A stretch of 64,000 nt of DNA from assembly GCF_028368935.1 (NCBI RefSeq), contig NZ_JAQNDK010000003.1, forward strand, positions 1,178,001 to 1,242,000. Direction: 5' to 3'. The notes below the pieces were generated by a model. The model was not told the DNA's origin. It searched no databases and saw only the letters and a program-made list of their open reading frames with translations. Of this stretch, positions 40,180 through 43,426 are shown in pieces (the stretch's first letter is position 1; every line of letters starts with the position of its first letter). The translations under genes and the position numbers were made by a program. This stretch comes from Sorangium aterium. Lineage in GTDB: Bacteria > Myxococcota_A > Polyangia > Polyangiales > Polyangiaceae.

Positions 40180-40698
40180 ATGGCCGACCAACAGCATGGC
40201 GAGCGCTGTCCCAAGGCGCCGCGAGGCGATCACAAGTACGAGGACGTCATCCTCGCGGCGGACAACGGCAAGCTCTACTACCTGCGCCGGGAGGACTACA
40301 TCCGGCCCGAGAACGAGCTGACCGCGGAGAACTGCGGGCACTGTTACGACCGGGCGATGGAGCTCCTCAAGCAGGGCGTCGCGCTGGGCTGGATCCGGCC
40401 CCGACCGGGCAACCAGGCCTGCTACCTGGTCAACCTGGCGAGCCTGCGCCGGGTGACGCCGTTCGAGCCCGCGACGTGGAGACAGGAGGGGCCGGATCCC
40501 ATGCAGGACCTCCTCGCGGCCTCCGAGTGGGCCGACCAGGCAGCCACCCACGCCACGGCGGCCGCGCTGGCGCGCGAGCTCGGCGAACCGGGCGAGGCGA
40601 TGATCGCGGCCAAGCAGACGCTCCATGCCGCGGAGCAGAGCGTCAAGGACGCGCAGGCGGCCATCGAGCACCTCGTCGCGGGCGACAAGGACCAGTGA
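40180..40698 (+). CDS. Unknown 172-aa protein, first gene of the YcaO-TfuA operon
   Basis: ATG 40180 has AGGAG 6 nt upstream. The protein has a polar N-terminus, three segments with Cys (ERCPKAP, NCGHCYDRA, NQACYLV), a tyrosine-rich strand (NGKLYYLRREDYI), and a C-terminal helical region (about 105-172) rich in Ala, with coiled-coil-like periodicity. No leader/core split, signal peptide or known fold is visible. The stop codon overlaps the GTG of ycaO (GTGA), so it is translationally coupled. In such operons the unknown member may be the substrate, a partner that presents it, or a receiving enzyme; the sequence does not decide. Confidence 0.75.
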   Translation: MADQQHGERCPKAPRGDHKYEDVILAADNGKLYYLRREDYIRPENELTAENCGHCYDRAMELLKQGVALGWIRPRPGNQACYLVNLASLRRVTPFEPATWRQEGPDPMQDLLAASEWADQAATHATAAALARELGEPGEAMIAAKQTLHAAEQSVKDAQAAIEHLVAGDKDQ

Positions 40699-41987
40699 GC
40701 GCGGCAGCGGGCCCCTCGCCGGAGCGGGCCGCGGTCCGCGCCGCCAAGGGGTTCCGGGAGGGCACGCACCGGCTCGTCCCGCCCGCCGAGACCATCGCGC
40801 GCGTCGCGCCGCACCTGTCCGCGTTCGGCATCACCCGGGTGGCCGACGTCACCGGCCTCGATGTCATCGGCCTGCCCGTCGTCATGGTGTGCCGGCCCAA
40901 CGCAGCCTCGCTCGCGGTCTCCCAGGGCAAAGGGCTCACGCTCGACGCGGCGCGGGCGTCCGGGCTCATGGAGTCGATCGAGTCCTACCACGCCGAGCAC
41001 GTCGACCTGCCGCTCCGGCTCGCGAGCCACCGGGATCTCGCGCGCGCCGCTGCCGTGGTCGACGTCGCCGCGCTGCCGCGCCTCTCGGTCGGCGCCGCGC
41101 GCGAGCACCACCGGGTGCTCTGGATCGAGGGGCGCGATCTCCTCCGCGACGAGGCCGTGTGGGTCCCTTATGAAATGGTGCACACGAACTACACGCTGCC
41201 GCTGCCGGCGGGCAGCGGCTCGTTCGTGATGAGCTCGAACGGCCTCGCCTCGGGCAATCACCTGCTCGAGGCCGTGAGCCACGGCATCTGCGAGGTCGTC
41301 GAGCGCGACGCGACAACGCTCTTCCGCGCCGGCGGCGAGGCCGAGATCCCTGGCTCCCGGCTCGATCTCGCCACGGTCGACGACCCCGGGTGCCGCCACG
41401 TCCTCGACCTCTACGAGGCCGCCGGCGTCGCCGTGGGCGTCTGGGAGACCACGACCGACGTCGGCCTCCCTGCGTTCCTCTGCCTGATCGTCGATCGCGC
41501 GCCGGATCCGTTCCGCCGCCTCTACGCGACCGAGGGGATGGGCTGTCACCCGAGCCGGAGCGTCGCGCTGCTCCGGGCGCTCACCGAGGCCGCGCAGAGC
41601 CGGCTCACGTTCATCGCCGGCTCCCGCGACGACGGCGACCGCGATCGCTTCGAGCGGGCGCGCCACGCGGACGCCATCCAGCGCGCCCGCGAGCAGATCG
41701 CCGGCGTCCGCGGCCCGCTCCGCGGCTTCCGCGACGTCCCGTCGCTCGAGGGCGAGACCTTCGACGACGACGTCGCCGCGGAGCTCGCGTGCCTCCGGCG
41801 CGCCGGCGTCGAGCGCGTCGTCGTCGTCGACGTGAGCAAGCCCGGGCTCGGCATCTCCGTCGTCCGGGTGATCATCCCGGGCCTGGAGTCGATCGACGAC
41901 GTGCCCGGCTTCGTCCCGGGGCCCCGGGCCCGGGCGCGCGCCGCCGCACGCGCGGCGGCTGCGGCGAGGAGCGCGGCCACCGCGTGA
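40695..41987 (+). CDS. YcaO-domain ATP-dependent cyclodehydratase/thioamidation enzyme
   Basis: The 430-aa protein starts at GTG 40695. YcaO signatures: the GTHRLVPPAETIARVAPHL start of the TfuA-associated class, then SQGKGLTLDAARASGLMESIESYHAE (ATP-binding Glu cluster), FVMSSNGLASGNHLLEAVSHGICEVVERDA (second cluster with conserved Glu), LPAFLCLIVD, and GMGCHPSRSVALLRALTEAAQSRL. YcaO enzymes activate a backbone amide with ATP; partnered with TfuA they install thioamides in methyl-coenzyme M reductase and in some RiPPs. Both YcaO and TfuA here overlap by four bases at each junction, so the three-gene unit is transcribed and translated together. Confidence 0.93.
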   Translation: MSAAAGPSPERAAVRAAKGFREGTHRLVPPAETIARVAPHLSAFGITRVADVTGLDVIGLPVVMVCRPNAASLAVSQGKGLTLDAARASGLMESIESYHAEHVDLPLRLASHRDLARAAAVVDVAALPRLSVGAAREHHRVLWIEGRDLLRDEAVWVPYEMVHTNYTLPLPAGSGSFVMSSNGLASGNHLLEAVSHGICEVVERDATTLFRAGGEAEIPGSRLDLATVDDPGCRHVLDLYEAAGVAVGVWETTTDVGLPAFLCLIVDRAPDPFRRLYATEGMGCHPSRSVALLRALTEAAQSRLTFIAGSRDDGDRDRFERARHADAIQRAREQIAGVRGPLRGFRDVPSLEGETFDDDVAAELACLRRAGVERVVVVDVSKPGLGISVVRVIIPGLESIDDVPGFVPGPRARARAAARAAAAARSAATA

Positions 41988-43426
41988 GCGTCATCGTCTT
42001 CACGGGCCCCACGCTCCCGGCCGCGGACGGCGCCGCGCTGCTCGACGGCGCCGTGTTCCTGCCGCCGGTCGCGCAGGGCGACGTGTACCGGGCCACGCTC
42101 GAGAAGCCGTGGGCCATCGGGATCGTCGACGGCTACTTCGAGCGCCTGCCCTCGGTCTGGCACAAGGAGATCCTCTGGGCCATGGCGCACGGCGTCCACG
42201 TCTTCGGCAGCGCCAGCATGGGCGCGCTGCGGGCCGCCGAGCTCCACCCGTTCGGCATGACCGGCGTCGGCGCCGTGTTCGAGGCGTTCCAGAGCGGCGC
42301 GCTGACCGACGACGACGAGGTCGCGATCGCCCACGCCGCCGCCGAGGACGGCTACCGGCCGCTCTCCGACGCGATGGTGAACATCCGCGCCACGCTCGCC
42401 GCCGCGGTCGCGGCGTCGATCCTCCGGGAGGAGACCGCCGCGGGGCTCGTCTCGCTGGCCAAGCGCACGTTCTACGCGCAGCGCAGCTTCGCGCGGCTGC
42501 TCGCGGAGGGCGCCGCGGCCGGCGCGAGCCCCGAGGAGCTCGACGCCCTCCGGCGCTTCTTGCCGGACGGGCGCGTGGATCAGAAGCGGCGCGACGCCGT
42601 CGCGATGCTGGAGGCGATCGCGGCGCTGCGCGCGCGCGACCCCGGCCCGCTCAGGGTGACGTACCACTTCGCCTATACCGACGTCTGGGACCAGGCGTGC
42701 CGGCGCGCCGGCCGCGGCAGCGTGGCCGCCACGCAGGGCGCCCGCGCCGGGGCCGCGCCGGCCCAGCGTCCGGGCGCCGAGCCGGCCGGCGCGCGATCAC
42801 GGCGCGCGCAGGGCGGGCTGCAGCCGGAGCTGCTCCTCGACGAGCTCCGGCTGGAAGGGCCGCTCTCCTATACGAACGCCGTCCAGGGGGCCCTCGCGCG
42901 GGCGCTCGCCCTGAGCGAGGCGCGGCGCCACGGGGTCGAGGTCCCCGTCGAGCTCTTCGAGGAGATCCTCGCGCAGGTCCGGCGGGAGCGGGGGCTGCTC
43001 ACGCCCGAGAGCACGCTCGCCTGGCTCACGGAGCAGGCGCTCGACGTCGAGGGCCTCACGCTGCTCGTCCAGCGGGAGGCGCGGCTGCGGTGGGCGCAGG
43101 CCGTCTTCGGGATCGAGGTGGAGCGGCTCCTGGTCGACCACCTGCGCATGACGGGCCGCTACGGCGAGCTCGCCGCGCGGGCCCTTCGCAAGCAGGAGGT
43201 CCTCTCCGCGGCAGGCGTCGAGGCGCCCGCGCTCGAGGACCTCGGCCTGACGCGGCAAGCGCTGCTGGCGTGGTATTTCACGGAGATCGCCGGCCGCCCG
43301 CTCCCGGCCTACCTCGACGGTTACGCGGCCGCGCTGGGGCTCGACGATCAGGACGAGCTGCTCCTCGTCATCGCCCGCGAGTACGAGCACAGGCGGCGCG
43401 GCGAGAGGCCGCCGGCCGACGGCTGA
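41984..43426 (+). CDS. TfuA-like protein with extended C-terminus
   Basis: The 480-aa protein starts at GTG 41984, overlapping the ycaO stop by GTGA. Residues 1-210 are the TfuA core: VIVFTGPTLPAADGAALLDG, VFLPPVAQGDVYRATLE, IGIVDGYFERLPSVWHKEILWAMAHGVHVFGSASMGALRAAEL, GVGAVFEAFQSGALTDDDEVAIAH. This core partners YcaO in thioamidation. After about residue 240 comes an Ala/Arg-rich linker, then a 200-residue helical domain (LSYTNAVQGALARALALSEARRHG, EIEVERLLVDHL-like) that simple TfuA proteins lack. The gene ends four bases before a convergent reductase gene. Confidence 0.9.
   Translation: MSVIVFTGPTLPAADGAALLDGAVFLPPVAQGDVYRATLEKPWAIGIVDGYFERLPSVWHKEILWAMAHGVHVFGSASMGALRAAELHPFGMTGVGAVFEAFQSGALTDDDEVAIAHAAAEDGYRPLSDAMVNIRATLAAAVAASILREETAAGLVSLAKRTFYAQRSFARLLAEGAAAGASPEELDALRRFLPDGRVDQKRRDAVAMLEAIAALRARDPGPLRVTYHFAYTDVWDQACRRAGRGSVAATQGARAGAAPAQRPGAEPAGARSRRAQGGLQPELLLDELRLEGPLSYTNAVQGALARALALSEARRHGVEVPVELFEEILAQVRRERGLLTPESTLAWLTEQALDVEGLTLLVQREARLRWAQAVFGIEVERLLVDHLRMTGRYGELAARALRKQEVLSAAGVEAPALEDLGLTRQALLAWYFTEIAGRPLPAYLDGYAAALGLDDQDELLLVIAREYEHRRRGERPPADG

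Follow-up and report, generated by a model that had tools for sequence, protein, structure and literature searches.

What does the YcaO-TfuA pair of Sorangium aterium act upon, when its operon holds one further gene, the 172-residue product of which (ORF172) matches no model of either Pfam or NCBIfam? The features that bear on this question lie in a window of 64,000 nucleotides, the whole stretch of DNA that was analysed:

40170..40174, + strand: AGGAG, probable ribosome-binding site of ORF172, preceding the ATG at 40180 (from the sequence)
40180..40698, + strand: ORF172, 172 aa, probable substrate or precursor protein (from sequence and profile searches)
40246..40284, + strand: VILAADNGKLYYL, residues 23-35 of ORF172, conserved leader-like motif, predicted beta hairpin
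40420..40452, + strand: CYLVNLASLRR, residues 81-91 of ORF172, conserved motif, proposed as lying at or near the site of modification; low model confidence
40498..40692, + strand: C-terminal helical extension, residues 107-171 of ORF172, closely matched only in So0157-2 among the aligned relatives
40695..41987, + strand: ycaO, TfuA-associated type, 430 aa (from Pfam, NCBIfam and PDB matches)
41984..43426, + strand: tfuA, 480 aa; residues 1-219 (41984-42640) match the solved TfuA 6xp8
42824..43402, + strand: C-terminal domain of TfuA, residues 281-473, all-helical; residues 304-373 match TIGR04500
43431..44336, - strand: NmrA-like NAD(P)-binding protein, recurrent neighbour
44405..48523, - strand: Ser/Thr kinase - AAA_16 - TPR protein, recurrent neighbour

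The three genes of the operon are confirmed as collinear reading frames at these positions, and the 4-bp GTGA overlaps described in the earlier note are indeed present at both junctions. The GTG starts of ycaO and tfuA are forced, because no other ATG, GTG or TTG occurs upstream of the conserved N-terminus, as far back as the point where the preceding gene ends. Between ycaO and tfuA the overlap is of 4 bp in 48 of the 51 loci measured, near-duplicate loci being counted separately. The overlap of ORF172 with ycaO says little about function, since it is absent from the nearest relative, S. cellulosum So0157-2, where a gap of about 58 bp separates the homologous genes; the idea that the proteins are produced in fixed ratio is thus not borne out. 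Further upstream, a 73-aa ORF (MKIKARDGKVYEVA..., 39779-40000, + strand) is 97% identical in So0157-2, while ORF172 is 60% identical there. It bears a DGKVYEV string, insignificant against the profile of the ORF172 domain (E 2.7).

The nature of the two enzymes is the easier part of the question. YcaO matches PF02624 (E 5e-82) and TfuA PF07812 (E 3e-47), and their best PDB matches are methanogen MJ1094 (6pe3/6peu, E 6e-31) and the TfuA of M. acetivorans (6xp8), respectively. With its YcaO domain and an adjacent tfuA, the former is of the TfuA-associated type. For both proteins the best-scoring NCBIfam models are those of the McrA thioamidation pair (TIGR03266, NF033432), neither reaching its curated cut-off (225 of 365 bits for YcaO, 211 of 235 bits for TfuA). 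That archaeal pair (PMC5589413) is likewise encoded by adjacent genes with overlapping frames, and likewise acts on a protein. By contrast, the present TfuA has an extra C-terminal domain, and here a candidate substrate is encoded within the operon.

This extra domain, already pointed out in the earlier note, is real: the TfuA of M. acetivorans (6xp8, 217 aa) covers residues 1-219 only. In a predicted model of good quality (pLDDT 88) these residues fit 6xp8 (Z 28.2, rmsd 1.7, 215 aligned), and residues 281-473 make a separate helical domain. TIGR04500 is matched in 27 of 47 relatives (E<=0.01); the TfuA of the window stays under the curated cut-off (31 of 180 bits), so that its C-terminal domain is related to this family without being a member of it. 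A match to SurA_N_3 (Pfam) in three of the 47 relatives is thin support for SurA. Fold searches with the whole TfuA model gave a list filled by matches of the N-terminal domain, so that the lack of any for the C-terminal one carries no weight, and a PDB profile search with the C-terminal domain returned chance-level matches only. Its presence does not correlate with that of a CYLVNL-type protein (23 of 39 loci against 21 of 44). A member of TIGR04500, MirC, is needed, together with its ATP-grasp enzyme, for the graspetide rosaritide (PMC13097080). According to the authors of that work, the C-domain of MirC in part resembles a chaperone domain of the SurA-like kind; the TIGR04500 match of the window TfuA falls in the part that they so name. 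MirC, however, is a stand-alone protein, whereas the TIGR04500-like domain is fused here to TfuA and would work, if at all, with YcaO, not with an ATP-grasp enzyme. On this evidence TfuA seems able to bear, by fusion, a domain that handles substrates.

What, then, is ORF172? Its sequence, used alone, finds almost nothing: no relative in the genome contig collection, nothing in plasmids (nor did a small relative used as a query), and, in 145 genomes of the order, one convincing relative (G075) beside two weak matches. The protein of G075 (108 aa, blastp 1e-10) is encoded immediately before a ycaO that is 63% identical, and tfuA comes next. It is therefore via profiles and operon context that the family becomes visible. 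We examined the ORFs upstream of ycaO at loci sampled from TfuA matches, present in 35 of 108 same-family genomes, and from a scan of genome contigs with a YcaO alignment (at least 80 loci). Many of them have in common a domain of about 70 residues, composed of a hairpin (like aaDDGKLYxL, also written aaDNGKLYyL), a helix and a CYLVNLxSL-like motif, and found in proteins that range from about 73 to more than 460 aa. Tandem copies occur in L103 and L156; at L068, of which L115 is a near-copy, Big_2 Ig-like domains (Pfam) precede the domain upstream of ycaO. In a Myxococcales MAG (L127) a second, divergent domain of this type is seen at 2609-2956 (+ strand), some 2 kb ahead of the first.

The tie of this family to ycaO is tight. 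When one group of close relatives at a time was left out of the profile, the top match among the 70-777 ORFs of a locus was, for each of the 18 groups, the ORF directly upstream of ycaO; the groups being those of an alignment of our own choosing, this measures the coherence of the family rather than its frequency among loci. With Sorangium left out, ORF172 came at the top of the 777 ORFs of the window (48.7 bits, E 2.3e-14). In the 108 same-family genomes the profile has 17 matches, in 14 genomes. All 17 neighbour a ycaO, which in one case is incomplete on its contig. The earlier note had envisaged homologues living mostly without ycaO and tfuA; in these genomes the reverse is observed. The genome of S. 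aterium itself (C1-C3) displays seven full-length YcaO matches, with an additional fragmentary one, and three TfuA genes. The domain profile has two matches only in this genome, both upstream of ycaO-tfuA, at the present locus and at C2:1641498; no such domain was found at the third TfuA locus, C2:1020252.

In other phyla the family takes another face. Where CYLVNL is missing, the ORF upstream of ycaO often retains only the N-terminal DGxLY motif, as in the peptide MIRGADGRLYAV from Azospirillum. The C-termini are then variable and sometimes repeated, in loci from Chloroflexota, Acidobacteriota and Alphaproteobacteria, with repeated tails such as FASSWFASSWFASSW (L108), SKADIIVAGESDIITHSKANIIV (L113), DYHAGRMAIEADDHEAGRMAI (L130) and DADAGRWAISP (L154). 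Peptides of this kind beside ycaO (L154, L130, L146, L108, L113) are possibly multi-core precursors. A leader profile built from 20 motifs was run on 17,705 six-frame ORFs, with a cut at 8.8 bits: the best 50 of these all share their strand with ycaO, and 47 of the 50 are the ORF next to ycaO, a count that overstates independent support, as 20 of the matches were seeds and several loci are mutual duplicates. The other matches are a second copy in L064 and L127 and a downstream ORF in L119. The ORF172 family has in this way one trait of RiPP precursors, a conserved N-terminal leader-like segment; as for the core, the variability found in other phyla gives way, in the ORF172 branch, to a well-conserved CYLVNL. 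The statement that no RiPP precursor lies adjacent to the enzymes is contradicted, for ORF172 itself looks like one. At 14 ycaO loci of the clade (L120, L125, L129, L149, L153, L158, L161, L162, L165, L166, L170, L171, L172 and L175) neither domain nor leader was detected beside ycaO, and the C-terminal domain of TfuA is present in 12 of them; at L120 and L129 (Azospirillum) it is possible that a short ORF was missed.

We consider it fairly likely that ORF172 serves YcaO and TfuA as their dedicated substrate, thioamidation being the modification that it would undergo, because its gene adjoins theirs, because its conserved domain is linked to ycaO in the family genomes searched, and because precursor-like peptides elsewhere bear the motif too. 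The earlier note had left the choice between a substrate and a presenting partner. Adjacency to ycaO in 17 of 17 cases supports this pair of roles, and the tails seen elsewhere tilt the choice: a common N-terminal motif followed by variable tails is the pattern of RiPP precursors, and would be needless in a partner. A recognition or scaffold protein, RRE-like, that would bring some other substrate to the enzymes is in our opinion unlikely, even though YcaO enzymes frequently work with a partner (PMC13063428) and the conserved hairpin-helix domain, which can occur in tandem copies or joined to Big_2 domains, is probably folded; an unsystematic look noticed no other common small ORF that might be the substrate. 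Some observations do count against the substrate reading: ORF172 is large for a RiPP precursor, with 86 residues after its motif, the cysteine of CYLVNL is not universal among the loci, and neither a protease nor an exporter was recognised among the flanking genes scanned.

Three Cys motifs had been singled out beforehand; that of NQACYLV is widely conserved, while ERCPKAP and NCGHCYD are at best shared with So0157-2. In the alignment even the Cys of the former is replaced, by Thr in L110, L057 and L133, by Ala in L104 and by Val in L099. Being the commonest residue at that place, Cys might bring to mind a sulphur carrier that would feed TfuA with a persulphide, a role which we find very improbable for ORF172, as its replacement in several loci and the absence of CYLVNL from the leader-only peptides both speak against it; a persulphide relay as a general role is rejected, because the cysteine is not universal. 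That YcaO might form an azoline there, rather than a thioamide, is quite improbable as well: Cys, and Thr in three loci, are the residues that a cyclodehydratase would use, but Ala and Val are not accounted for, a TfuA partner is present, and the SagD cyclodehydratase model is not reached by YcaO (133 of 219 bits). CYLVNL could also be a structural strand and not the modified site, since the tandem copies keep a hydrophobic strand at that place without the cysteine. Predicted structure is weak evidence here. An AlphaFold2 model made from 25 sequences (pLDDT 72, pTM 0.34) displays a hairpin at residues 23-35, a helix at 53-64, a region of low confidence at 81-100 and the helical C-terminal extension; around the CYLVNL motif its pLDDT falls to about 55, which may reflect disorder or merely a shallow alignment. 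Searching the PDB with the family profile gave chance-level matches only.

Coming back to ORF172 as the substrate, we infer a reaction, its site and a docking mode as follows. The N-terminal DNGKLY hairpin and the helix after it would dock on YcaO-TfuA, where TfuA perhaps helps with its helical C-terminal domain; YcaO would then use ATP to activate a backbone amide at or near CYLVNL, and TfuA would supply the sulphide, giving a thioamide, with sulphur in place of the backbone oxygen (+16 Da).

The earlier note had overlooked a pair of recurrent neighbours (43431-48523). Relatives of both genes are found at many ycaO-tfuA loci, convergent downstream as in the window in Pseudovibrio (L105), Roseibium (L107) and a Polyangiaceae MAG (L112), and with all five genes on one strand in L111. 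The first 200 or so codons of the kinase ORF (44405..48523) are probably non-coding, because its relatives start close to the kinase domain. With thresholds chosen after the data had been seen, 31 of the 39 loci that have the CYLVNL domain show a relative of the kinase above 150 bits, against 0 of the 44 that lack it; any related AAA_16 protein is seen at 42 of the 49 loci that have either the domain or the leader, and at 0 of the 14 that have neither. Most of the AAA_16 proteins inspected (Pfam; annotation of Azospirillum B510) include at least one of a kinase and a nucleotide cyclase. On the YcaO tree this amounts to two independent contrasts only (sign test, p 0.5): strong by raw count, the kinase link is not statistically established beyond common descent, and synteny conserved across phyla is a better argument for it than statistics. 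So0157-2 has neither the NmrA-like nor the kinase neighbour within about 5 kb. We think it probable that the kinase-AAA-TPR protein either controls the set or reacts to what it produces. That the thioamidated protein or peptide is a signalling element dedicated to the neighbouring STAND-type kinase or cyclase, a ligand or subunit sensed by the AAA_16-TPR protein, is a more doubtful proposal.

Several known systems come close to this arrangement. In the TOMM system kinase/cyclase (TIGR03903), too, AAA_16 and TPR are combined with a kinase and/or a cyclase next to a YcaO system, and a large Ser/Thr kinase stands beside Burkholderia TOMM precursors (PMC2887384); the kinase of the window reaches 246 of 706 bits, under the curated cut-off of that model, and sits beside YcaO-TfuA. 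Clusters of the thioviridamide type, covered by the surveys of thioamidated RiPPs (PMC8120280, PMC6511847), likewise have ycaO-tfuA beside a leader-bearing candidate precursor; the substrate here is larger, and the flanking genes that were scanned revealed no further gene for tailoring, proteolysis or export. The 2021 survey lists TfuA clusters in Proteobacteria, including Corallococcus, and 797 precursor families, some of which may include the present peptides unnamed; the main texts of both surveys, searched for the kinase and related terms, yielded nothing. In E. coli, YcaO thioamidates the backbone of uL16, also a folded protein (PMC13063428). No TfuA takes part there, and uL16 belongs to the ribosome instead of serving the enzyme as a dedicated substrate. 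Term searches and selective reading of the main texts of the openly searchable literature brought up no description of the motif family, the TfuA fusion or the kinase link.

Relatives of the ORF172-ycaO-tfuA set, usually beside a large signalling protein, are found in several bacterial phyla. Many YcaO-TfuA pairs of unknown target thereby gain a concrete candidate family of substrates, with a motif that can be searched for, and what these pairs act upon outside methanogens becomes a directly testable question. If the signalling link were true, thioamides would enter bacterial signal transduction.
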